Assembly (NCBI GenBank): GCA_028684815.1
Contig: JAQUFE010000010.1
Location: 1-62,112, forward strand
Source: Sulfurimonas sp.
GTDB taxonomy: Bacteria > Campylobacterota > Campylobacteria > Campylobacterales > Sulfurimonadaceae
Length of the DNA: 62,112 bases
Reading direction: 5' to 3'
In this document: piece after piece, positions 35,133 to 62,112 of the stretch
How the letters are laid out: every line of letters begins with the position of its first letter
Position numbering within the stretch: position 1 is the first letter of the stretch
Notes under the pieces: model-generated
What the model saw: only the letters and a program-made list of their open reading frames with translations
Database searches by the model: none
Told to the model about the DNA's origin: nothing
Translations under genes and position numbers: made by a program

Positions 35133-35255
35133 ATGATTGAACCCTCTGTTTAGTCTATAAACTAGATTCCGTGTCAAGCATGGAATGACGATGTGTCTGT
35201 CATCCTGAACTTGATTCAGGATCTAATTTATTAACTCTTCAGAGCACTCGATTGT
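35133..35255. repeat. Family-1 palindromic repeat, reverse orientation
   Basis: Compact single copy: ATTGAACCCTCTG end, TTCCGTGTCAAGCATGGAA hairpin, CCTGAACTTGATTCAGG hairpin, CTCTTCAGAGCACTCGATTG end. It shows the minimal unit of about 120 bp with both hairpins and inverted ends. Confidence 0.9.
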
Positions 35256-36532: not shown

Positions 36533-36665
36533 TTGAGTGCTCTGATTAATCTATAAATTAAATTCCGTGTGGAAGTGTAATAAACTCCGTGTCAAACAGC
36601 AAATGACGGTGTCTCTGTCATCCTGAACTTGATTCAGGATCCAACTTAATAATTCTTCAGTAGAT
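36533..36665. repeat. Family-1 palindromic repeat, reverse, degenerate
   Basis: GAGTGCTCTGATTAATCTAT end, decayed right hairpin (TTCCGTGTGGAAGTG, TCCGTGTCAAACAGC), intact CCTGAACTTGATTCAGG hairpin, AATTCTTCAGTAG end. Confidence 0.82.
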
Positions 36666-37419: not shown

Positions 37420-38559
37420 ATGCCAAAAGTCAATATCACCAACAGGTTCATCACAAAAGTACAACCTCCCCAAACAAAGTCTAAAGAGGTCTATTACGAC
37501 ATAAAGTTAAGCGGTTTTAGCTTAGAAGTAAGAGAAACAGGTAGAAAAACTTTTTACTTTAGTTACTCCAAAAATGCAAAAAGAATCTCACGCAAGATAG
37601 GTTGTGCAGATATACTCACAGCAAATGAGGCTAGAGAGATTATAGTTTTGCTAAAAAAAGAGCATATACAAGACAATGTAACTTCTATAATGGTAGAGAA
37701 GTCAGACTCTCTTACTATAGTAAAATTTTTCCATGACTTCTACCTTCCATACATACAAAAGCACATCAAAAGCTATGCGGCGAATGAGAGCATCTTTAGA
37801 AACCATATTTTGCCAACTCTAGGCTCAACAACCATGCAAAATGTCAAAAAGATAGACCTTATGAAGCTTCATTCAGAGATGCTTAGCAAAAAAAAGCTCC
37901 AGCCCGCAACCGCAAACAAGCTCCTTGTTTTTCTCTCTCAAGCATATACTCTTGCCTATGAGTATGAACTCATACAAGCTCCCTACAACCCAGTCACAGG
38001 GATAAAACACTTCCAAGAGAACAATGAAAGAGAAAGATTTTTAACAAAAGCAGAAACAAAAAGGCTTATAGCCGCAGTAAATGTAAGTGAAAATCTACAC
38101 CTAAAATACATCATCCCCATGCTTCTACTTAGTGGAGCAAGAAGAGGAGAGGTTTTAAAAGCCCAGTGGAGTCACTTCAACGAGACCCAGATGCTATGGA
38201 CAATCCCCGTCACAAAAAACGGTAAAAAGAGAGTACTACCCATAACGCAAGAACTACACTCCCTACTAAAGCAAATTCCCAAAGAGTCCAAATATCTCTT
38301 TACCTCTAAAGCAACCAACAAACCCTACGTTACCATCTACAATAGTTGGAACACTGCAAGAAAAAAAGCAGGGTTGCCAGAGGTTAGAATGCACGATCTA
38401 AGACACACCTACGCCTCTGCACTTGTCAATGCCAAGAGAAGTCTCTATGAAGTACAAGTTCTTTTAGGTCATAAAACAGCAAAGATGACGCAAAGATATG
38501 CTCATCTCTCAAACGAGTCTCTACACTCTGCCGCTTCTTGTGCGGCAAGACTTTTTTAA
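37420..38559 (+). CDS. Tyrosine recombinase, paralogue 1
   Basis: 379-aa phage-type integrase with an N-terminal Arm/DUF4102-like domain (KSKEVYYDIKLSGFSLEVRE), a core-binding domain and the catalytic domain: R in GARRGEVL, HxxR in HDLRHTYA, LLGHKT, nucleophile in MTQRYAHLS. All catalytic residues are present. Strongly similar over its length to the integrase at 42366-43517. AAAGGA precedes the ATG. The target site is not identified; no tRNA is adjacent. Confidence 0.9.
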   Translation: MPKVNITNRFITKVQPPQTKSKEVYYDIKLSGFSLEVRETGRKTFYFSYSKNAKRISRKIGCADILTANEAREIIVLLKKEHIQDNVTSIMVEKSDSLTIVKFFHDFYLPYIQKHIKSYAANESIFRNHILPTLGSTTMQNVKKIDLMKLHSEMLSKKKLQPATANKLLVFLSQAYTLAYEYELIQAPYNPVTGIKHFQENNERERFLTKAETKRLIAAVNVSENLHLKYIIPMLLLSGARRGEVLKAQWSHFNETQMLWTIPVTKNGKKRVLPITQELHSLLKQIPKESKYLFTSKATNKPYVTIYNSWNTARKKAGLPEVRMHDLRHTYASALVNAKRSLYEVQVLLGHKTAKMTQRYAHLSNESLHSAASCAARLF

Positions 38560-38589: not shown

Positions 38590-38613
38590 ATACCTGCTTA
38601 CAGATAGCAGGTA
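38590..38613. repeat. Hairpin after integrase 1
   Basis: TACCTGCT-tacagat-AGCAGGTA about 30 bases after the stop codon. Either a terminator without a T run or part of a recombination site; weakly resembles the palindrome at 36794-36823. Confidence 0.4.
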
Positions 38614-38793
38614 GAAAAAACTATAAAACTTCAAAACCAAACTAGCCATCAAACCTCCGTCTATAGGTGCTTTTACAGATTTTATAGATTTTTATATCTA
38701 TCTCAAAAGGCATAAAAAAAAGTCCCCAAGCTTTTAAGTCTGCTGGTGGACTGCAGGTGGGAAAAAAAAGCAAAGAGTAAGAGGCGAAAATAT

Positions 38794-38819
38794 GGGGGTG
38801 AGATGGGAGGTGGGGTGGG
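38794..38819 (+). promoter_or_regulatory. G-quadruplex motif abutting the S-layer-like ORF
   Basis: Four G tracts: GGGGG (38794-38798), GGG (38805-38807), GGGG (38812-38815), GGG (38817-38819) with loops of 6, 4 and 1 bases. This meets the canonical G3+N1-7 pattern, is one base from the ATG at 38821, and is exceptional in this AT-rich sequence. It also contains the only ribosome-site-like GGAGG. Confidence 0.75.
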
Positions 38820-38820
38820 T

Positions 38821-41529
38821 ATGTTGACTACAAGTGCTGATACTTTCGTAGGTACAGCAAAGAATGATTTATTTGATGCATCTGTAAAAGGTACATTACA
38901 AAAAGCTGATGTAATCTTAGATTCTTCATCAACAGACCACGATACACTAAATGCAACAGTAAGCTCAACTGGCATAGATGCAAGAATCCAAAATGTTGAG
39001 ACACTTAACATTAATGGTGAGTATGTATCTACAGGATTAGCACTTACAAATGTAACAGGTTCAAAAGACTTAAACCTAAATACAGGTCTTGCAGGTGGAA
39101 CAGCTAAAGTAACAGATGCAAACACTATTGCAGTACAAAACATTACTGCTAAAGCTAATATTACTAAATTAGAAGTAAGTTCTTTATCTTCAGGAACAAG
39201 AGATACAGTAAATATTAATGCAGGAAATGCAGATGTACTTTTAACGGGTAGTTCTGCTGCAGATAAATACTTAGTATCATTAGCTGCTGATAAAACATTA
39301 ACAGTAACAAAAGACTCTATGATCAGTGCAGCTGATGCATTAGAAGTAAACATAGCTGGTGACGCAACATATGAATTAACAGCAGATGATACAGCTGCAA
39401 ATGATGAATTAGCATTATCTTTTGTAAATAATGCAGCAACTGAAAGTACAGTAACTGCAATAGCAGGTAAAGCAATCGCAAAAACACTAAAACTATCAGG
39501 AAACGACATAGTTATAGATGCAGGTGATGGTTTATCATTAGGTGGTACTTCAGTAACTGCTGGTGGTACAAAAGTAACTTCAGACGCTGCTAAATCAACA
39601 ATCGAGCTAAGTAATACTCTTGGAGCTAGTAAATTCTTCAACAAAGCAGTTGTAGATAACATAAAAGCTACAAAAGACTTAAATACAGTAACATTAACAG
39701 TAAATGAAGCTACAAAAGTAATACTTGACGAAAAGCAAACTGCATTAACTATGAACATCGATAATGCAACTGGTGATATCGCTTCTACAGGAACTCTATT
39801 ATTAGATGCAAACGCAGATCAAACTAAACTTATCACAGGTGCTCAAATTGATACAGTACTACTTACAGCTGGTAAACTAGAAAATGATGCAAACGGTGTA
39901 GCTCAAACAGTTACAATCGATGAATTAGATACAGCTACAACAGGTGTTAATGCAAATGTAGTTCTTACAGGTGCAAATGACCTTGTTCTCACAAAATGGA
40001 CAAATGATGCTGACACTATCCTAAACGCTGCAGGTATGACAGGTAATCTAACTCTTGGAACTGCAACTGGACCTGCTTCTGGTACAGCAGCTGCTTCTAT
40101 CATTATCTTAGGAAAAGGCACAAACACAGTTTTCGCTGGAGTAACAGGAGTAAACACTAAAATCACTGGTAACACAGGAGTTGATAATATAACTCTTGTT
40201 GCGACTGCTGCTGGAATAAACACAGTTGACACTGGAGCTGGTGATGATGTTATCACTACAGGAGCTACTGGTACAAACAACATAACTGTTGGTGCAGGTA
40301 ATGACACAGTTAATATTACTAATGCTGCTACAGTAGATACAATTACTTTAGGTTCAGGTAACAACACAATCAATATGGTAGTTGAATCTGAAACAGTAAT
40401 TAAAAACATCAACACAGCTAATGATACAATCGTATTAACAGGTGCTGCAACTACAGCTGTAAACCTAAAAGAAGTTACACCTGCAACAGGTGCTTATAAA
40501 GTATCAGGTGCAGCTGCTGCTGACTTTACATTAACAGGTTCAACTATAACTGACCTAACTTCATTTGTACAACTAGGTAATGCAACTACAGCATTCACAG
40601 CTAAAACTAATTTAGCAGTAATAGCTGGAGCAAAAGACGACTTCATCGCTGTTGATGGTACAAGTGCAATCACAACAGGTGCTGGTTCAGATACAGTTAT
40701 CGTAGCTACAACTCAAAAAACTGCAACAGTAACAGACTTCACAACAGGTTCAGATAAAGTTGTATTAACAGGTGCTGCTGCTAATGGCGATAGTATAGAT
40801 TTAACTAAAGTAGTAGTTTCTTCTGGTAAACTTACATTAAGTACAAATCATGAAATTACACTAAACAATGGTACAAACGCTGTTCTAGCTGATGGTACAG
40901 GTGCTACAGCTAAAGACGCTTCTGCAATAGTACAATTAGGTACTTCTACAACAACAACATTCGAGGTATATGGTACACGTGCTGCTATCAGTGTAACTGG
41001 TGGAAAATTTGATGACTTTATTGAAGTAGCAAATTCAACTAGTCTTGTAACAATCAACTTCACAGATAACGGTGGAATGGATACAATCACTGGATTTACA
41101 ACTGCTGAAGTTGCATTGACATTTGGTAATATTACTGGTATTACAGCTGCTTCAACAGGATTTGACCTTACAGCTAAAACTGCAGCTACTGTAGCAACAA
41201 GTGGTGAAGTTTATGTTCTAGCATCAGATACAAGCATTGCTGGAGACACAATTGACTTCTCAATCTTAAATGATGATGCAACTACTGGTCCAGTAGTTAA
41301 AATCACAGATGCAGTAATTATGGAAGATGTAGTAGCATACTTAAACAATGCACTTTCAGGTGTAAAAGCTAACCATACTTATGTAGCAGTTATTCAAGAT
41401 AATGATAATACAGAGTCATATTCTTACTTAATTAATGCTACTTCAGATGCTATAACAACTGATGACATTACATTAATTGGTCATGTTGATGCTGCAGTTG
41501 CTGCAACTGATGTTACTGCAATCGCATAA
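38821..41529 (+). CDS. S-layer/RTX-like surface protein, N-terminus apparently missing
   Basis: About 902 aa from ATG 38821 (MLTTSADTFVGTAKNDLFDA); an upstream GTG at 38746 would add only a basic, G-tract-encoded stretch. Composition is dominated by Thr, Ala, Asp, Gly, Val and Asn with almost no Cys. Beta-strand repeats with calcium-type turns occur (TGAGDDVITTGATGTNNITV, GAGNDTVNI, GSGNNTINMV). The C-terminus (DDITLIGHVDAAVAATDV) resembles a type I secretion signal region. Related S-layer proteins normally have an N-terminal anchoring region before the DTFxGTxxND element; here it is absent, so this may be a silent or recombination cassette. Flanked by paralogous integrases. Confidence 0.75.
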   Translation: MLTTSADTFVGTAKNDLFDASVKGTLQKADVILDSSSTDHDTLNATVSSTGIDARIQNVETLNINGEYVSTGLALTNVTGSKDLNLNTGLAGGTAKVTDANTIAVQNITAKANITKLEVSSLSSGTRDTVNINAGNADVLLTGSSAADKYLVSLAADKTLTVTKDSMISAADALEVNIAGDATYELTADDTAANDELALSFVNNAATESTVTAIAGKAIAKTLKLSGNDIVIDAGDGLSLGGTSVTAGGTKVTSDAAKSTIELSNTLGASKFFNKAVVDNIKATKDLNTVTLTVNEATKVILDEKQTALTMNIDNATGDIASTGTLLLDANADQTKLITGAQIDTVLLTAGKLENDANGVAQTVTIDELDTATTGVNANVVLTGANDLVLTKWTNDADTILNAAGMTGNLTLGTATGPASGTAAASIIILGKGTNTVFAGVTGVNTKITGNTGVDNITLVATAAGINTVDTGAGDDVITTGATGTNNITVGAGNDTVNITNAATVDTITLGSGNNTINMVVESETVIKNINTANDTIVLTGAATTAVNLKEVTPATGAYKVSGAAAADFTLTGSTITDLTSFVQLGNATTAFTAKTNLAVIAGAKDDFIAVDGTSAITTGAGSDTVIVATTQKTATVTDFTTGSDKVVLTGAAANGDSIDLTKVVVSSGKLTLSTNHEITLNNGTNAVLADGTGATAKDASAIVQLGTSTTTTFEVYGTRAAISVTGGKFDDFIEVANSTSLVTINFTDNGGMDTITGFTTAEVALTFGNITGITAASTGFDLTAKTAATVATSGEVYVLASDTSIAGDTIDFSILNDDATTGPVVKITDAVIMEDVVAYLNNALSGVKANHTYVAVIQDNDNTESYSYLINATSDAITTDDITLIGHVDAAVAATDVTAIA

Positions 41530-41541
41530 CAACAAAACATA

Positions 41542-41646
41542 ACAAAGGGTGTCAGGCACCAAAACAGGAACAAAACTTAGTTTTACCTTAACTAAGTTTG
41601 ACACACTTTGACACACTTTTAGTCCTACTTTCCATAAGTAGGACTT
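41542..41646 (+). repeat. Family-2 repeat with hairpin, after the S-layer-like gene
   Basis: GGTGTCAGGCACC core, then the perfect stem AAACTTAGTT-ttacctt-AACTAAGTTT, then GACACACTTTGACACAC, then AGTCCTACTT-tccat-AAGTAGGACT. The last hairpin is the same as the terminator of the small-protein cassettes but lacks the T run here. Confidence 0.9.
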
Positions 41647-41689: not shown

Positions 41690-42000
41690 AACAGCAAATC
41701 CCTTTTTTTACAATAACCCCTAAAATACCACCAAGCCGATAAAAAAAGTACAACAACCCACATAACACCACAACCACCCATACAACACCCAATCCTCCAC
41801 CACACACCACAAACACTTTATCCCAACCTATGACATCACCCAGAGTACAATAACCCCTCCTAGAGCCTCCCACAGCTTAACTAAACCTTAACACCAATCC
41901 AACCAACAAAAGCCATCTCAACCACCACTCACCACTCCCACAGCACAACTCACCACCATTCCATCAACCAAGCTCTCCACCCCAAACCACACATTTGCTA
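41690..42000. other. Strand-asymmetric, G-depleted tract
   Basis: About 300 bases made nearly only of A and C with occasional T on the plus strand (ACAACCCACATAACACCACA and similar). No gene is supported; the minus-strand ORF across it is Gly/Val filler. Its left part, TTTTTTTACAATAACCCC through CCGATAAA (about 41700-41745), is shared with 45240-45283. Confidence 0.55.
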
Positions 42001-42059: not shown

Positions 42060-42241
42060 GGTCGGCGATTGGTCGGCTAAAAAAGCTCAAGTGTCCCATA
42101 ATACTTTAGAGACAGCTACAACACCCTCTACACCAAACTTCTGTAAAAAGTAAATGCCTAAAAAGTGTCTCAAAAGCCCCTAAGCATTATGAGACACCTA
42201 AAATCACTCAAATATGCCTATTTGGTCGGCAAACGGTCGGC
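42060..42241 (+). promoter_or_regulatory. Paired GGTCGGC direct repeats upstream of integrase 2
   Basis: GGTCGGC occurs at 42060-42066 and 42071-42077 and again at 42224-42230 and 42235-42241. Both pairs have exactly 11-bp spacing. Between the pairs lies the stem GTGTCTCA...TGAGACAC (42165-42197). The arrangement resembles integrase arm-type or operator sites, or a plasmid-iteron-like pattern. Confidence 0.55.
42165..42197. repeat. Inverted repeat upstream of integrase 2
   Basis: GTGTCTCA and TGAGACAC, a perfect 8-bp dyad across a 17-base loop. A related GTGTCCCATAA...GAGACA lies near 42092-42116. Confidence 0.55.
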
Positions 42242-42365
42242 TAACTGCCCTTGACAAGGTTTTTAGCCTTAAACTATACTCCCATTTAAGGTTGGAGCGA
42301 AAATCAAGCCCTAAACCACATAAAACATACCAATAAATCAAACACAAAAATAAGGAAAATACAAT

Positions 42366-43981: not shown

Positions 43982-44596
43982 ATGACACTGTCATTTGGCA
44001 ACCTTTCTCCTTCAGAGTTTGAGATATTAGCAGCAGATATTGTTGGAGCTGTAGAAGGTGTTTTTTTTGAGAGATTTGGTGAGGGAACTGATGGTGGAAT
44101 AGATGGTCGTGTATATAAAGATAACTCTTCTATGTGGATTATTCAAGCTAAAAGATATAAAAATAGTTCTTCTTTATTATCCCAGATGACGGAAGAAAAG
44201 CCAAAGATGGATAAGCTCAAACCTCAAAGATACTTTTTAGTTACTTCATCTTCTTTAAGCCCTCAAATGAAAGATAAACTAAAAGATGAGATGGATCCAT
44301 ATATTTTATCTACAGCAGATATTTACGGAGCTGAGGATATAACTGCTTTGCTAGAAGAAAGTCCAAATATTTATAGAAAACATTATAAGCTTTGGCTTGG
44401 TAGTGCTCGTGAGCTAAGTTTTATTCAACACAATGAATTTTATAATCGTTCTTCAACTATCATAGATAGATTGGCAGAAGATTTAAAATATTTTGTTTCA
44501 TATGATAAATTGGAAATTATAAGCGATAAGCTTAAAATAAGCAACTACCTACTTATCACTGGAGACCCAAACAAAGGGTGTCAGGCACCAAAATAG
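43982..44596 (+). pseudogene. Truncated Mrr-nuclease/STAND-type defence gene
   Basis: The first about 160 residues form an Mrr-like restriction-nuclease domain: LSPSEFEILAADIVGA, GEGTDGGIDGRVY and IIQAKRYK (D...QxK catalytic set). A linker leads to ISNYLLITGDP, where a Walker A loop (usually GxxGxGKT) should follow. Instead the frame enters a family-2 repeat (NKGCQAPK, stop). The ATPase and sensor parts of this nuclease-STAND anti-phage type protein are missing downstream. The nuclease domain may still be made. Confidence 0.8.
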
Positions 44597-44766: not shown

Positions 44767-45009
44767 ATGACATTACAAGAGAGAAAAGACAAAGCCGATA
44801 TAATTGCCAAAGAAGCAGATATAGTATATAAGAAATCATTTTTACTTCTTGTTGCAAGTGGAGGAGTTGGTGGTTATGCCATAGGTCAATCTGGTCTATT
44901 CTCCTTCATGCTGTTTGGAGTATTTGGATTCTTTTTACTTGGAATAGTTATTAACTATTTTGAGTTAAATAAATTAAAAAATGAAGTTAAGGAGTGTAAA
45001 AATGGATAA
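44767..45009 (+). CDS. Cassette A: two-helix small membrane protein
   Basis: 80 aa. The first 15 residues, MTLQERKDKADIIAK, form an amphipathic cytoplasmic helix that is nearly invariant among the five copies in the window. Two hydrophobic helices follow (about 24-42 and 46-65) and a charged tail (LNKLKNEVKECKNG). Its last codons overlap the next ATG by 8 nt. Unknown function; the size and topology would fit a holin, toxin, immunity or sensor protein, none proven. Confidence 0.78.
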   Translation: MTLQERKDKADIIAKEADIVYKKSFLLLVASGGVGGYAIGQSGLFSFMLFGVFGFFLLGIVINYFELNKLKNEVKECKNG

Positions 45010-45939: not shown

Positions 45940-46117
45940 TAATTGAATACTCTGAAGAATTATTAGGTTGGATCCTGAATCAAGTTCAGGATGACAGTTT
46001 GTTTGTTAATGACAGTTTGTTTGTTAATGATAGTTTGTTTGTTCAGGATGACGTGTGTCCCGTCATTCCGTGCTTGACACGAATCTAGTTTATAGATTAA
46101 TCAGATGGTTCAATTTA
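45940..46117. repeat. Family-1 palindromic repeat
   Basis: AATTGAATACTCTGAAGAAT end, GATCCTGAATCAAGTTCAGG hairpin, three GACAGTTTGTTTGTT filler repeats, right hairpin with a one-base loss (GTGCTTGACACGAATC), TTAATCAGATGGTTCAATTT end. Lies just upstream of the cytochrome gene. Confidence 0.88.
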
Positions 46118-56687: not shown

Positions 56688-58883
56688 ATGGCATTAACAA
56701 CAGATAAAAAAACTTTTTTATTGATACTTTTAGCATTTACTTTTAGTGTAGTAGTGCGGCTTATTTGGGTTGAACAATTTAGCCATGAAGAGCAGTTTAA
56801 GTTCAATGGTGAGTTTATGATAAACACCAATGATGGCTACTACTACGCAGAAGGGGCTAGAGACATCCTAGCTGGAGTGACCGAAAACACAAATGATTTG
56901 TCTCCATTTAAGAGTGCTCCAAGCGTTTTGACAGCTTTTATAGCTAGTCTTTTGCCCTTCTCCTTTGAGACTATTATCTTTTATATGCCTGTCTTTTTTG
57001 CATCACTTATAGTCATTCCCATAATCTTAATAGCAAGAGAGTTTGATAGGCTTGAAGTTGGCTTTATTGCAGCACTTATGGCTAGCATCGCATGGAGTTA
57101 CTACAACCGCACTATGGTCGGCTACTATGATACTGACTTTTTAACCATAGTTTTTCCTACCGTTTTGCTTTGGTCGCTCATCTGGGCAGTAGATAGCGCT
57201 AAAGATAAGTACCTCCTCATAGCAGCTCTTGATGCGATAGCTTATAGATGGTGGTATCCACAAAGTTATGCGCTTGAGTTTGCTTTTATAGCTCTTATAG
57301 GCATCTATATAGTCTATCAAATAATCAAAAAACAAGATTTTAAAACAAATGTACTACTCATCTCTTTTATGCTTTTTGCTATGGTAAATCTTGATGGATT
57401 TATAAGATTTGCAATGGTAATTGTTTTTTATCTTTTACTAAAAACTCAAAGAGAGTTAGTCTTTAAATATCTCTACTATATCTTTGCTTTTGCAGTTATC
57501 CTTTTCTTTGCAACTGGTGGTTTTGACCCTATCTGGAGCCAACTAAAAGGTTATGTATTTAGAGATGCGCTACATAGTGACGCTAAAGGATTAGGTCTTC
57601 ACTTTTTTACAGTTATGCAAACTATAAGAGAGGCTGGAGAGATTCCTTTTGAGATGTTTGCAAATCGCGTTAGCGGACATACTCTAACTCTCTTGGCATC
57701 TATGGTAGGTTATATCTGGTTTGTTTACAAACACCCTGTAATGCTTCTAGGGCTTCCGATGTTAGGACTCGGATTTTTAGCTTATGGCATACCTAATCTT
57801 GTAAGTGGTGGTGGACTAAGGTTTACTATCTACGCTGTACCTGTGATGGCTCTGGGTCTAGGTTATATCATCTATGAGCTATCTAAATGGTTCTCAACTA
57901 AGTTTATCAACCATAAAACAAGTCTTATTGCAAAGTATGCTTTTATGACTCTTCTTAGTCTCGCGGCACTCTATCCAAACATAGCTCATGTTATAGAGTA
58001 CAGAGTACCTACAGTCTTTACTCAGGATGAAGTAAAACTCTTAGACAGACTGCAAAAAATAGCTGATAGAGAGGACTACGTTGTTGCGTGGTGGGACTAT
58101 GGTTATCCTATTCGCTACTATAGCGATGTAAAGACTCTTATAGATGGAGGAAAACATAACGGAGCTGAAAACTTTCCAGTTAGTTTTATACTAACTTCAG
58201 CACAAGATGCAGCGGCTAAGATGTCTCGACTCGATGTTGAGTACGCTGAGAAAAGATTTAGAGTTAGTGGAGCAAATATAGGCTTAGATGAAAATCATAC
58301 TAGCTATGTAAAGCTCTCAAGTAGCAACATAGAGCAGATGACGCTAGATTATGGCTACAACAACACAAATGACTTTTTAAACTCTCTAAAGCAAGAGATA
58401 AATCTACCTACTAAAACTAGAGATGTCTACCTCTACTTACCAAGTAGAATGATGGGCATTATTCCAACTATAGCTCTTTTTTCAAGCCTAGACCTTATGA
58501 GTGGAGAAAAAAAAGCTTCGCCATTTTTTTACAATTCAAGCTATATACAAGATACGGATGAGAGTATTAAACTTGGTAATGGCATTCATATTATCAAAAA
58601 AACTGGGCAAATTATGATTGGCAATAAGGCCTTCGCTATAAATAATTTTGTTGTCACTGAGTATGATAGTGAAGGGGTGTTAAGAAAAAACATCCAAGTC
58701 ATAGATAAAAATAGCCCTATAAATGTTATCTTTATGAGAGATTACAATCAGTTTTTAGTCTTAGACAAAAATATGTTTAACTCAACATATATACAACTTT
58801 TTGTGTTAGAAAACTATGACGAGGCTCTCTATGAACCAGTTATACTAGACCCAATGGCTAAGATTTTTAAACTAAAGATCTAG
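56688..58883 (+). CDS. pglB: Oligosaccharyltransferase PglB (STT3 family)
   Basis: 731 aa. An N-terminal region with about 13 helices carries the metal-binding motifs (NDGYYYAEGARD; GYYDTDF). The periplasmic domain carries the acceptor-binding WWDYG (in VVAWWDYGYPIRYY) and an MxxIxxxI helix (MMGIIPTI). Ending FNSTYIQLFVLENYD ... IFKLKI resembles Campylobacter PglB. It moves lipid-linked glycan to asparagine in D/E-x-N-x-S/T sequons in the periplasm. The preceding glycan genes likely build its donor. Converges on the RAYT gene with a 4-bp overlap. Confidence 0.93.
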   Translation: MALTTDKKTFLLILLAFTFSVVVRLIWVEQFSHEEQFKFNGEFMINTNDGYYYAEGARDILAGVTENTNDLSPFKSAPSVLTAFIASLLPFSFETIIFYMPVFFASLIVIPIILIAREFDRLEVGFIAALMASIAWSYYNRTMVGYYDTDFLTIVFPTVLLWSLIWAVDSAKDKYLLIAALDAIAYRWWYPQSYALEFAFIALIGIYIVYQIIKKQDFKTNVLLISFMLFAMVNLDGFIRFAMVIVFYLLLKTQRELVFKYLYYIFAFAVILFFATGGFDPIWSQLKGYVFRDALHSDAKGLGLHFFTVMQTIREAGEIPFEMFANRVSGHTLTLLASMVGYIWFVYKHPVMLLGLPMLGLGFLAYGIPNLVSGGGLRFTIYAVPVMALGLGYIIYELSKWFSTKFINHKTSLIAKYAFMTLLSLAALYPNIAHVIEYRVPTVFTQDEVKLLDRLQKIADREDYVVAWWDYGYPIRYYSDVKTLIDGGKHNGAENFPVSFILTSAQDAAAKMSRLDVEYAEKRFRVSGANIGLDENHTSYVKLSSSNIEQMTLDYGYNNTNDFLNSLKQEINLPTKTRDVYLYLPSRMMGIIPTIALFSSLDLMSGEKKASPFFYNSSYIQDTDESIKLGNGIHIIKKTGQIMIGNKAFAINNFVVTEYDSEGVLRKNIQVIDKNSPINVIFMRDYNQFLVLDKNMFNSTYIQLFVLENYDEALYEPVILDPMAKIFKLKI

Positions 58884-59659
58884 GTAGTTTTTAAAAAGGG
58901 AGCTTGGTTTTTTGAGTCCAGAGGCAATGCTTTAGCAATAGTTTTTGCACTCAAGTTTAAAAACTCGGCTATCTCAGTTTTTTTGTAGCCATATTCAAAA
59001 GCTTTTTGTATATTTTCATCTCTATTTATATCTATGTCACTTTCAAAAAAAGTCTCTAGTCTCTTCTTTAGAACTTTAAGCTTGCCATCTTTTGTTATAA
59101 GTTTTGGAGAATTATAGACAATGTCTATCGCATCAATTTCTACTCCACTAAGATACTTTTCATACTCAACAAAGGTCATCTCAAAAATCATGGAATTATT
59201 TAAAAGTTCATAATAGTTATGCTTATATTTCCACTGAAAAAATGATTGGTATTTATAAAGCGCGACATCCTGCACCATCTTTGCTTTTATGGGATTTCGC
59301 TCTATATATTTTGCAACAATCCAAAAATGGGCATCGTCAAAGAGAAGATAGGATTTATACCTGCCCTGCCAGAGGTGACCACTTCTTGTGTATTTTTTGT
59401 TAAAATATTTAGCGTATCTTTCATTTACAAACTGTATGGCTTTTGAAATATTTGAGGTTTTGGTTTCTAAAAGAAGGTGATAGTGGTTTGTCATAAGACA
59501 AAATGTATGTACGATAATTTCATGGTCTTTGGTAAGGTCGAGCAAGAGATCTAAAAAAAATTCATAGTCTTCTGGTTCAAGATAAATATCTCTCTGTTCT
59601 ACCCCGCGGTTGATAATATGATAAAGCCCAGGCTCTTGATATCGTTCTTTTCTTGCCAT
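58880..59659 (-). CDS. REP-associated tyrosine transposase (RAYT, Y1 HUH)
   Basis: 259 aa. N-terminal LYHIINRGVEQRDIYL, HUH motif HYH in MTNHYHLLLE, and the Tyr-containing helix RYAKYFNKKYTRSGHLWQGRYKS is replaced here in part: FVNERYAKYF then SGHLWQGRYKS. A C-terminal HTH-like tail (YKKTEIAEFLNLSAKTIAKA) is present. RAYTs mobilise palindromic REP sequences. This one lies at the 3' end of, and in the same direction as, an array of family-2 repeats with small-protein cassettes; a degenerate family-2 repeat sits directly upstream. Confidence 0.87.
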   Translation of the reverse strand: MARKERYQEPGLYHIINRGVEQRDIYLEPEDYEFFLDLLLDLTKDHEIIVHTFCLMTNHYHLLLETKTSNISKAIQFVNERYAKYFNKKYTRSGHLWQGRYKSYLLFDDAHFWIVAKYIERNPIKAKMVQDVALYKYQSFFQWKYKHNYYELLNNSMIFEMTFVEYEKYLSGVEIDAIDIVYNSPKLITKDGKLKVLKKRLETFFESDIDINRDENIQKAFEYGYKKTEIAEFLNLSAKTIAKALPLDSKNQAPFLKTT

Positions 59660-59679: not shown

Positions 59680-59775
59680 CTTAGCTTAATTTAAGTTTTA
59701 TTCCTGTTTTGGAGCCTGCTATCTTTCCTTAAGGTGGCAACTGACACCCCTTTTTCTACTTTTTGACACCTTTTT
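59680..59775 (-). repeat. Family-2 repeat, degenerate, upstream of the RAYT
   Basis: Contains TTTTATTCCTGTTTTGGAGC and CAACTGACACCCC, recognisable relatives of the family-2 GTTCCTGTTTTGGTGCC and CTGACACCC, plus a second TTTTTGACACC. Links the transposase gene to cassette B. Confidence 0.7.
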
Positions 59776-59874
59776 TTAGAAGTAATCTGCTATTTTCCAG
59801 TGGTTTTTATATGCAACATAGGCTATCATTGTTGCTATAATAATTGTAACACCTAATAATATTCCACTACTCAT
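59776..59874 (-). CDS. Cassette B: single-helix peptide with HWK tail
   Basis: 32 aa (MSSGILLGVTIIIATMIAYV then AYKNHWKIADYF). Overlaps the two-helix gene by 8 nt (ATGAGTAG), same organisation as cassette A. Confidence 0.75.
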   Translation of the reverse strand: MSSGILLGVTIIIATMIAYVAYKNHWKIADYF

Positions 59875-60109
59875 TTTCTAACTCCTCAATCTGTCTTTTT
59901 GCTTTATTAATGGAAAAATAGTTGAACATTAAACCTACTACTAATATTCCAAATAAAAACATTAGAAAGTACTTCTCAAATCCTATCTGATTTAAGCCAT
60001 AACTACCAATAGCTCCAGCAGAAGCTAACAGTACAACCATTTTCTTATAGATGATGTCACTCTTCTTAGCAATCATATCGGCTTTGTCTTTTCTCTCTTG
60101 TAATGTCAT
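59867..60109 (-). CDS. Cassette B: two-helix small membrane protein
   Basis: 80 aa: MTLQERKDKADMIAKKSDII, two divergent hydrophobic helices, tail INKAKRQIEELENE. About the same layout as cassette A but little identity after residue 23. Confidence 0.78.
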   Translation of the reverse strand: MTLQERKDKADMIAKKSDIIYKKMVVLLASAGAIGSYGLNQIGFEKYFLMFLFGILVVGLMFNYFSINKAKRQIEELENE

Positions 60110-60115
60110 GTAGAG

Positions 60116-60121
60116 ATTATA
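60116..60121 (-). promoter_or_regulatory. Cassette B promoter, predicted leaderless
   Basis: TTGGTATAAT on the minus strand with CTCTAC and then ATG; six bases separate the -10 box from the start codon. Confidence 0.75.
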
Positions 60122-60199
60122 CCAAAAATAGGAAAAAGAATAGAAAGAAGAAATAGATTCAAGATAAAACTTGCATTATGTTAAGTAGAAAAGAAGAGT

Positions 60200-60231
60200 A
60201 AAAAAAAGCCCTACTTATGGAAAGTAGGACT
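60200..60231 (-). terminator. Terminator upstream of cassette B
   Basis: Minus strand: AGTCCTACTT-tccat-AAGTAGGGCT with TTTTTTT after it; it ends transcription from cassette C and isolates promoter B. Confidence 0.85.
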
Positions 60232-60407
60232 GAAAGAGTGTCAAAGTGTGTCAAACTTAGCTAAGGTAAAACTAAGTTTTGTTCCTGTTTTGGTGCCTGA
60301 CACCCTTTGTTGAAAAGAGTGTCAAAGTGTGTCAGACTTAGTTAAGGTAAAACTAAGTTTTGTTCCTATTTTGGTGCCTGACACCCATTGTTCTGACACC
60401 CATTGTT
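60232..60407 (-). repeat. Family-2 repeats, two copies plus a half
   Basis: Two near-identical 75-bp units (GGTGCCTGACACC at about 60292 and 60373 on the plus strand), each with the AACTTAG/CTAAGTT stem, and a trailing CTGACACCCATTG. All in the same orientation relative to the cassettes. Confidence 0.9.
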
Positions 60408-60409
60408 TA

Positions 60410-60514
60410 TTAAAAAATACCACCTATTTTCCAATGATTTTTATTTGCTATATAGCCAATAATCCATGCTGCTACAAAGCCTATAGCTAATAATAAAAGT
60501 CCAACATCTTCCAT
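60410..60514 (-). CDS. Cassette C: single-helix peptide with HWK tail
   Basis: 34 aa (MEDVGLLLLAIGFVAAWIIG, then NKNHWKIGGIF). Starts one base after the two-helix stop. The ADYF tail is changed to GGIF. Confidence 0.72.
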   Translation of the reverse strand: MEDVGLLLLAIGFVAAWIIGYIANKNHWKIGGIF

Positions 60515-60515
60515 T

Positions 60516-60758
60516 TTAAAACTCCTCCATATTTTTTTTTAGTCTGTTTAGCTCATTGTAATTATATGCAACACCTACAGACACAATAATAAAAATTATT
60601 CCAAGTGCATAACCAAATATATTATTTTGCTCTATAAACTTTACTGCATATGCACCTATACCACCATCAATAGCTAAAAGAGCTATTAATTTTTTATTGA
60701 CAATATCTGCAATTTTAGAAAGTTTATCTATAGTATCTTTTCGTTCTTGTAATGTCAT
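60516..60758 (-). CDS. Cassette C: two-helix small membrane protein
   Basis: 80 aa: MTLQERKDTIDKLSKIADIV then two helices; LLAIDGGIGAYAV is shared in pattern with cassette D. The most divergent N-terminus of the set. Confidence 0.76.
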   Translation of the reverse strand: MTLQERKDTIDKLSKIADIVNKKLIALLAIDGGIGAYAVKFIEQNNIFGYALGIIFIIVSVGVAYNYNELNRLKKNMEEF

Positions 60759-60764
60759 GTAGAG

Positions 60765-60770
60765 ATTATA
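60765..60770 (-). promoter_or_regulatory. Cassette C promoter, predicted leaderless
   Basis: TATAAT-CTCTAC-ATG on the minus strand, as in cassette B. Confidence 0.75.
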
Positions 60771-60840
60771 CCAAAAATAGAAAGAAGAAATAGATTCAAG
60801 ATAATCTGCATTAGGTTAGGTTAAGTAGAAAAGAAGAGTA

Positions 60841-60871
60841 AAAAAAAGCCCTACTTATGGAAAGTAGGACT
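60841..60871 (-). terminator. Terminator upstream of cassette C
   Basis: Same hairpin as before cassette B, AGTCCTACTT/AAGTAGGGCT, followed by T7 on the minus strand. Confidence 0.85.
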
Positions 60872-61130
60872 AAAAGAGTGTCAAAGTGTGTCAGACTTAG
60901 TTAAGGTAAAACTAAGTTTTGTTCCTGTTTTGGTGCCTGACACCCTTTGTATGGAGAGTAGTGAGGCTGGGTTGGAGAGTGTCAGAGAGTGTCAGGTCTT
61001 AGTTAAGGTAAAACTAAGTTTTATTCCCACTTTGGTGCCTGACACCCATTGTTGACACCCCTTTTTCACCCCTTTTCACCAGTTAAGGTGAAACTAAGTT
61101 TTTGCACAAAACGGTGCCTGACACCCTTTT
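60872..61130 (-). repeat. Family-2 repeats, three copies
   Basis: Units ending in GGTGCCTGACACC at about 60932, 61034 and 61114. Between the first two lies GTAGTGAGGCTGGGTT, the reverse complement of a stretch at about 41647-41662 after the S-layer-like gene, so the shared unit is larger than the palindromes. The third copy is diverged (GTTTTTGCACAAAACGGTGC). Confidence 0.88.
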
Positions 61131-61132
61131 TT

Positions 61133-61237
61133 TTAAATCCAGTCAGCAAGCTTCCAATGTCTGTTAACAGCTAAAAAACCTACAATTGCAGCAAACACAA
61201 ATCCTAATGGTATTATTAAAATTCCTAGTTCATTCAT
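61133..61237 (-). CDS. Cassette D: single-helix peptide with HWK tail
   Basis: 34 aa (MNELGILIIPLGFVFAAIVG, then VNRHWKLADWI). Overlaps the two-helix gene by 8 nt (ATGAATGA). Confidence 0.74.
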   Translation of the reverse strand: MNELGILIIPLGFVFAAIVGFLAVNRHWKLADWI

Positions 61238-61481
61238 TAGATATCCTTTCTAAGTTTTTTGTCCATTGATTCATTTTTACATAAGTAACGAAAATTGCTA
61301 TCGAGACAAATATAAAAATGATAGCAAATACATATCCAACAATATTGGAGTCTGCTATATACTTCAACGCATATGTACCAAATGCTCCATCAATTGCTAA
61401 TAATATAATTAATTTTTTATAAAGCGAATCAATCAGTTTAGCAATTATATCGGCTTTGTCTTTTCTCTCTTGTAATGTCAT
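61230..61481 (-). CDS. Cassette D: two-helix small membrane protein
   Basis: 83 aa: MTLQERKDKADIIAKLIDSL, helices about 24-42 and 50-70, tail KMNQWTKNLERISNE. Confidence 0.78.
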   Translation of the reverse strand: MTLQERKDKADIIAKLIDSLYKKLIILLAIDGAFGTYALKYIADSNIVGYVFAIIFIFVSIAIFVTYVKMNQWTKNLERISNE

Positions 61482-61487
61482 AACTAG

Positions 61488-61493
61488 ATTATA
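61488..61493 (-). promoter_or_regulatory. Cassette D promoter, predicted leaderless
   Basis: TATAAT-CTAGTT-ATG on the minus strand, identical to cassette A. Confidence 0.75.
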
Positions 61494-61574
61494 CCAAAAA
61501 TAGGAAAAAGAATAGAAAGAAGAAATAGATTCAAGATAATCTGCATTAGGTTAGGTTAAGTAGATAAGAAGAGT

Positions 61575-61605
61575 AAAAAAAAGCCCTACTTATGAAAGTA
61601 GGACT
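61575..61605 (-). terminator. Terminator upstream of cassette D
   Basis: Same hairpin with one base fewer in the loop, followed by T7 on the minus strand. Confidence 0.83.
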
Positions 61606-61790
61606 AAAAGTGTGTCAGAGAGTGTCAAACTCAGTTAAGGTAAAACTAAGTTTTGTTGCTGTTTTGGTGCCTGACACCCTTTGTTTGACACCCTTTGTTA
61701 AAAGAGTGTCAAAGTGTGTCAAACTTAGTTAAGGTAAAACTAAGTTTTGTTCCTATTTTGGTGCCTGACACCCTTTGTTCACCCTTTGTT
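61606..61790 (-). repeat. Family-2 repeats, two copies
   Basis: Two units ending in GGTGCCTGACACC at about 61667 and 61760, plus extra half sites TTTGACACCCTTTG and TTCACCCTTTG. Confidence 0.88.
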
Positions 61791-61791
61791 T

Positions 61792-61896
61792 TTAGAAGTA
61801 GTCTGCTATTTTCCAGTGGTTTTTAACTGCTAAAATACCTATAATAGCTGCAACAATTGCACCAAGTGGAAATAACAATGGAATAATATCATTCAT
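61792..61896 (-). CDS. Cassette E: single-helix peptide with HWK tail
   Basis: 34 aa (MNDIIPLLFPLGAIVAAIIG, then VKNHWKIADYF). Starts one base after the two-helix stop codon. Confidence 0.74.
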   Translation of the reverse strand: MNDIIPLLFPLGAIVAAIIGILAVKNHWKIADYF

Positions 61897-61897
61897 T

Positions 61898-62112
61898 TTA
61901 TTTAAGCTCCTCTATTTCATTTTCAATTTTACTAAGTTTCAGTAAGTTAACAAAAACACCCATTGAAACAATCATAAAGAGGACAAAGGCAAAAAGACCA
62001 ATAAGTCCACTTTCTTTTGTGCCATATATCCAGCTTCCACCAGCAATAGCAAGATAAACAAATAACTTTTTATTTACGACTTCACTCTGTTTAGCAATTA
62101 TATCGGCTTTGT
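61898..62112 (-). CDS. Cassette E: two-helix small membrane protein, partial
   Basis: Cut by the window end: 70 codons visible, starting KADIIAKQSEVVNKK, so only the first eight or so residues are missing. Tail SKIENEIEELK. Shows the array continues beyond 62112. Confidence 0.75.
   Translation of the reverse strand, partial: KADIIAKQSEVVNKKLFVYLAIAGGSWIYGTKESGLIGLFAFVLFMIVSMGVFVNLLKLSKIENEIEELK

Follow-up and report, generated by a model that had tools for sequence, protein, structure and literature searches.

A candidate S-layer body cassette beside a tyrosine recombinase gene in Sulfurimonas

The locus described here raises the question of what a surface-protein gene without a normal N-terminus might be, and whether the G-quadruplex (G4) at its 5′ edge marks a place where recombination begins. 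It lies in a 62,112-nucleotide stretch of a Sulfurimonas genome (hereafter the window, meaning the whole stretch analysed), which belongs to an assembly of 2.27 Mb in 101 contigs that is 96% complete. The original prediction had taken the open reading frame (ORF) for an S-layer-like cassette and the G4 for its recombination start site. The relatives used for comparison were likewise assemblies, mostly fragmented, and six anchorless bodies were compared in five Sulfurimonas genomes: one each in the window genome (G000), G010, G022 and G112, and two in G032 (a and b). The G112 body is known for about 140 codons only, since its contig ends there. The features and their coordinates are collected in Table 1.

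Table 1. Features of the locus, with positions in the window unless another contig is named
Feature	Position	Strand	Basis or remark
Int1, tyrosine recombinase, 379 aa; arm-binding, SAM-like and catalytic domains	37420..38559	+	Pfam PF00589 (E 4e-29), PF14659, PF13356
Leader, upstream paired repeat CTGCTTACAGATAGCAGGTAG, degenerate	38594..38614	+	aligned with CTGCTGACAATCCGCAGGT of G032; read from sequence
Leader, downstream paired repeat GCTGGTG / GCAGGTG, 11 bp apart; candidate integrase arm site	38740..38759	+	period-11 pair
Canonical G-quadruplex motif GGGGG-TGAGAT-GGG-AGGT-GGGG-T-GGG	38794..38819	+	read from sequence
Right half of candidate core TATGTTGACTACAAGT, codons M-L-T-T-S, at anchor/body boundary	38820..38835	+	boundary table
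S-layer-like body without anchor domain, 902 aa, RTX-like repeats, frame open throughout	38821..41529	+	aligned with complete protein L021
74-bp REP-like repeat, 3′ end of body unit	41541..41614	+	14 copies in genome, of which 13 are on this contig
C-rich, G-poor stretch (125 C, 13 G per 301 nt) between body and Int2 upstream region	41700..42000	+	base composition
Two paired repeats GGTCGGC(N4)GGTCGGC, 164 bp apart, upstream of Int2	42060..42241	+	repeat search
Promoter-like TTGACA-18-TATACT of Int2	42251..42280	+	sequence
Int2, second tyrosine recombinase, 383 aa	42366..43517	+	PF00589, PF14659, PF13356
IS200-like (RAYT-type) transposase gene, adjoins repeat array	58880-59659		
Anchorless bodies outside window	G010 contig C10; G032 contig C10 (two); G112 contig C14; G022 contig C64		

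The nature of the ORF becomes apparent from its complete relative in G010 (L021), a protein of 1196 aa that opens with a DUF4214-containing N-terminal domain some 180 residues long, followed by a part homologous to the window ORF. The window ORF begins where this N-terminal domain ends (M-LTTSADTF versus V-LTKSVSDE), so that the suspected lack of a normal N-terminus is confirmed: it is a body only, while complete relatives carry the DUF4214 anchor, and no anchor domain is joined to its RTX-like sequence in the manner of SapA or RsaA. The layout of the complete proteins resembles that of Caulobacter RsaA, with an N-terminal anchor domain and then a lattice domain; a similar LTTGTDTLTGTANNDTF motif follows the RsaA anchor domain as well, and no cassettes are known for RsaA, which is encoded by a single gene. 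The RsaA N-terminal domain (residues 1–249) binds LPS and precedes the lattice domain, and it is critical for anchoring in Caulobacter (PMC6978808). By analogy with RsaA, the window ORF would be the lattice-forming part without its anchor. A profile search of solved structures gave no direct S-layer match, only distant RTX beta-roll proteins, and the bodies had no sequence-level match to RsaA among them; the AlphaFold model of the body (pLDDT 51) was too weak for use.

Within its own genome the ORF is a single copy, and neither a second copy nor an acceptor gene was found elsewhere in the window assembly. Neither that assembly nor G112, both fragmented, contains a DUF4214 N-terminal domain, which is why no acceptor gene is seen in either. 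The original prediction had named a single-copy gene, arranged identically in all strains and without related cassettes, as the outcome that would speak against it; the gene is indeed single in the window genome, but its arrangement and body vary among genomes, and related cassettes exist elsewhere.

It is this wider comparison that upholds the idea of a cassette, as four further Sulfurimonas genomes contain anchorless bodies with this boundary, and the window ORF has a tyrosine recombinase as its neighbour. All six anchorless bodies start at or within a few codons of one joint, before or within ETFxLT. Five of them open with ATG-[TTG/CTT]-ACT and the sixth, in G022, with GTGGAGACTTTTAGTTTGACT; the G022 start reads GTG-GAG-ACT-TTT-AGT-TTG-ACT (V-ETFSLT) and that of G032a GTG-GAT-GAG-ACT-TTT-ATG-TTG-ACT, and in the complete G010 protein the residues ETF also stand ahead of LT. 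Complete genes have the same boundary after their DUF4214-type N-terminal domain, and G010, G022 and G032 each hold a complete gene together with an anchorless body or bodies. Considering that the G022 body is of a type unlike the others and yet starts at the same joint, one joint serves unrelated bodies. Conservation of the boundary could be due in part to a conserved protein motif; that different bodies are cut at one point in relatives suggests a store of exchangeable surface coats.

Four long bodies (902–1131 aa) have intact frames, and an in-frame stop interrupts the second copy of G032. The G112 body shares 86% amino acid identity over 140 residues with the body of the complete G010 gene, at a dN/dS of about 0.12; one body type therefore occurs in both states, under purifying selection. 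Judged by the intact frames and the low dN/dS, the stored bodies appear to have gone through a phase of expression in the past.

The G4 is present as originally described, with loops of 6, 4 and 1 bases and a single base between it and the ATG at 38821. It is the only four-tract motif in the 62 kb with loops of up to either 7 or 12 bases, and its occurrence exceeds chance, dinucleotide shuffles giving 0.01 and 0.035 motifs per window, respectively; a looser three-tract motif occurs at three places in the 2.27-Mb assembly, this one among them. The leader as a whole is rich in G and poor in C, with 37 G and 5 C in the last 80 nt before the ATG, and the G4 is thus the most pronounced part of a wider bias. 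Inside the G-tract, at 38805–38812 and about 10 nt before the ATG, lies GGGAGGTG, a good Shine-Dalgarno (SD) match that may act as a ribosome-binding site, and the G4 also overlaps the position of the candidate core's left half. Hairpin folding of the leader was no better than that of shuffles (z 0.14). The proposed role of the G4 in starting recombination is not supported, because no canonical G4 occurs at any of the five comparable genes of relatives (G010, G022, two in G032, G112), though they have the boundary, paired repeats and a recombinase in common with the window. Since these G4-less leaders retain the other features, the G4 is most likely an incidental by-product of a G-rich, C-poor leader.

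A candidate recombination core can instead be placed on the joint itself. When the G022 anchorless region is compared with the complete gene, the longest exact match, ACTTTTAGTTTGACTACGGGTA of 22 nt, falls exactly on the joint, and the next longest is 15 nt. Exact copies of the 17-bp core ACTTTYANKTTGACTAC number two in G022 and two in G032, in each case one at the anchorless body and one at the complete gene's anchor/body joint; the pattern was derived from these very sites, and the informative part is therefore the absence of any other exact site. Its left half is less constant: it differs in G010, where 16 nt (TGCTTACTAAAAGTGT) are common with that genome's complete gene, it is missing in G032b, and it is not preserved in the window, where G-tracts take its place. 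The right half in the window has no other exact copy there.

Int1 and Int2 both combine an R-HxxR-Y catalytic domain with an N-terminal arm-binding/SAM-like domain, as is typical of tyrosine recombinases, and are 64% identical to each other; in Int1 the residues R...HxxR...GH...Y can be read from the translation. Against the integron-integrase model TIGR02249, Int1 scores 44 bits, far below the cut-off of 265. Orthologues of Int1 precede anchorless S-layer bodies in G010 (96%), G022 (75%) and G032, and in these genomes and G000 the Int1-type gene lies immediately, or at most about 1.3 kb, upstream of the body. The G032b and G112 bodies lie some 1.5–2.5 kb downstream of another tyrosine recombinase and a resolvase-like gene, and a recombinase is thus upstream of all six. 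Family-wide and order-wide searches confined this anchorless-body type and the close Int1 relatives to the genus Sulfurimonas; the viral contigs searched contained no relatives, and Rfam and tRNA scans of the window returned no match.

Among the leaders, those of the Int1 group are mutually homologous (z 11 to 27) and have a weaker likeness to the upstream regions of Int2-type genes (z up to 9, against at most 2.2 for Int1-upstream controls). The G022 and G032 leaders are 73% identical over 313 bp (z 27) despite their different body types, and an independent BLAST search matches the leader of G032 with sequence upstream of Int in G068. Those of G032b and G112 resemble one another closely (z 52) and are unlike the Int1-group leaders. 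In both Int1-group leaders and Int2-type upstream regions, 7-mers recur with a period of 11 bp, and two such pairs often stand about 90–165 bp apart; period-11 pairs are present in the leader of the window, in the majority of the others and ahead of Int2-type genes, and the G032a pair is degenerate and visible by alignment only. Judged from sequence, this layout fits candidate integrase arm-type sites. The repeat layout upstream of Int2 recurs in G032 with GCAGGT, and one such pair occurs in G068. Between Int1 and the body in the window, no promoter-like site was seen on the + strand. The C-rich noncoding stretch before Int2 mirrors the body's G-rich leader, and a similar stretch precedes Int2-type genes in G032 and G112.

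Two orthologous loci differ by a block. The window and G010 loci have the same transporter gene and HTH remnant upstream, and their Int1 genes are 92–98% identical in DNA over nearly the whole length to the stop codon, after which identity drops to 63–69% for the leader and to about 60% for the body. This drop at the Int1 stop implies that leader and body were replaced as a block beside a conserved integrase or that Int1 itself was exchanged, the latter being considered because the neighbouring transporter gene is about 85% identical. In G068, two S-layer genes with unrelated bodies have a 955-bp 3′ flank and integrase start that are 96% identical, and a third tail bears the same 3′ flank. The two genes share a 25-nt stretch about 35 nt upstream of the joint. 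One G068 contig starts within 25 nt common to the anchor end of the other S-layer gene, which could reflect repeated or alternative joins.

We put it at about an even chance that ORF 38821–41529 is a stored, probably silent S-layer body cassette, exchanged at the anchor/body joint by the linked recombinase. Leader and body would be carried as a block beside Int1, and the 5′ edge of the body would be a recombination junction at the codons that join anchor to lattice domain in complete S-layer proteins. At a complete S-layer gene with the matching core inside it, the recombinase (RecA being the less likely agent) would connect the body to that core. The body would thereby acquire the promoter and anchor domain and would replace or displace the resident one, so that the coat changes; expression would be limited to the body that stands behind the anchor. 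We infer that Int1 would be the catalyst, that it would be active at present and that the window copy would be silent. The fuller proposal, a coat-changing system in which the linked tyrosine recombinase acts on an in-frame core, swaps bodies into the expressed gene and stores displaced bodies behind itself, is tentative and on the doubtful side.

Much of the same layout might also be left behind by an integrase element that inserted at the anchor/body joint of a complete gene, the anchor half being later lost or moved so that an inert right-hand junction stayed in place. The succession of integrase, arm-like repeats, core and body is that expected of a right junction, the window genome and G112 are without any anchor domain, and the stop in the second G032 copy would be decay. 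Such a relic is somewhat unlikely, however, as the anchor half is found at the other end of the integrase module in none of the six cases, the four long bodies keep their frames, related bodies have a low dN/dS, and homologous leaders front unrelated bodies, which a relic does not explain. It is unlikely, too, that the ORF is a stand-alone gene, translated from the ATG at 38821 by way of the SD-like sequence into a secreted, anchorless RTX/S-layer-like protein with C-terminal export. SapA and RsaA are exported via C-terminal signals, the SD-like sequence lies about 10 nt before the ATG, the ATG stands at the same place in five of the six bodies, and the window genome has no other S-layer anchor; but the leader is without a promoter-like site, no SD occurs in the G032b and G112 leaders, and G022 has no ATG. 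Moreover, since anchoring in Caulobacter depends critically on the N-terminal domain (PMC6978808), such a product would not be held on the cell.

RecA might conceivably swap bodies by homologous exchange at conserved boundary stretches, much as at the sap genes of Campylobacter fetus, with the integrases as mere bystanders at an island hot spot. The joint is conserved at the protein level, G068 has its shared stretch just upstream of it, and mobile genes are abundant at these loci; shared stretches of 16–22 nt are nonetheless short for RecA, and neither the recombinase upstream of every body nor the resemblance of the Int1-type leader to recombinase upstream regions sits well with bystanders, and we give homologous exchange little probability. 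The placing of a rare motif at the junction would suit gene conversion started by the G4, as at gonococcal pilE. This we hold to be very improbable, given that the G4 is missing at all five comparable genes, that the pilE G4 is upstream of the expressed locus (PMC4412290) and the one here at a storage copy, and that the window genome has no second copy to act as donor or recipient.

The reading of the ORF as a stored body cassette can also be set beside known systems of surface variation, among them that of C. fetus. There, sap proteins combine an N-terminal anchor with a variable body, and silent promoterless copies are exchanged with one expression site; the homologues keep a conserved 5′ coding region, and the exchange involves inversion of a promoter segment and depends on RecA. 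The likeness lies in the phylum, Campylobacterota, in an S-layer protein of anchor plus body, in stored copies that are probably silent here as well and in a similar purpose. The stored bodies of Sulfurimonas differ, however, in lacking the anchor-coding region, and with it the conserved 5′ coding region of sap homologues, and in lying beside a tyrosine recombinase. As for copy number, the window genome has a single copy and no anchor domain, while G010, G022 and G032 have both gene forms; no two bodies inverted around a promoter were seen. Shufflons, which swap C-terminal parts of a surface protein, and integrons resemble the locus in outline, with a recombinase gene, a recombination site and a promoterless protein part; no attC-type folded site was recognised here, the 74-bp repeat after the body being REP-like, an inverted segment array was not found, and Int1 falls below the integron-integrase cut-off. 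Variation of the sap S-layer is the subject of Dworkin & Blaser 1996 (doi 10.1111/j.1365-2958.1996.tb02469.x), as cited in PMC4902306. In Neisseria, a G4 is associated with the pilE/pilS system (PMC4412290, PMC3547852), and a partial copy of a surface-protein gene, silent in Neisseria and probably so here, with a G4 near the coding sequence is common to both cases. In Sulfurimonas, by contrast, the G4 lies at the stored copy and a site-specific recombinase is linked; a pilE-type role failed because the G4 is not conserved among the comparable genes of relatives.

Recombinational variation of S-layers is known in pathogens, where it is usually explained by immune escape. If the cassette reading is true, a form linked to a recombinase among free-living sulfur oxidisers would suggest selection of a different kind, for example by coat-recognising phages or grazers, and an in-frame crossover at a domain joint would keep the anchor fixed while the displayed lattice changes. 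A search of the literature available to us found nothing on S-layer cassettes in Sulfurimonas.

Several repeats and small elements also occur around these loci. Copies of the 74-bp REP-like repeat (AACAAAGGGTGTCAGGCACC...) lie at 41541, 44570, 45110 and 45281 and, on the minus strand, at 59692–62112. This right-hand cluster consists of tandem units with an 80–83 aa ORF (MTLQERKDKADIIAK...) and a 32–34 aa ORF (...KNHWKIADYF), and the contig ends inside the array. The repeats were considered as cassette attachment sites and rejected, as their distribution with small-ORF units and the IS200-like transposase fits REP elements better. One copy cuts off, near the expected Walker A motif, a part at 43982–44596 that resembles the Mrr_cat restriction-endonuclease-like N-terminal portion of the PADLOC candidate defence protein PDC-S73 (about 200 of 752 residues). 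REP-like palindromes CTGTCATCCTGAACTTGATTCAGGATC at 35136–35253, 36541–36660 and 45941–46114 flank the locus in inverted orientation, about 9–11 kb apart.

Several Sulfurimonas genomes carry the same 80-aa membrane-like ORF (MTLQERKD...), with no Pfam match, close to their S-layer genes or bodies, frequently accompanied by an IS200-like transposase gene (window 44767–45009; L121 5333–5584; L020 2276–3047; L077 15747–15989). Upstream of the bodies in L025 and L023, paired repeats of TGCCAGC/TACCAGC alternate with toxin-antitoxin-like genes and resolvase ends, which looks as though units had been added at one type of site. Both G032 loci (L022 13035–13215, L023 13910–14100) contain an insertion of about 190 bp (GAGCTTTCGCACCTAATTTT...) that is palindromic, includes a run of N and looks like a MITE. 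Finally, a tmRNA-like gene, recognised by eye, lies about 0.85 kb upstream of Int1 in G032 (L022 6040–6420); tmRNA genes are a common integration target.
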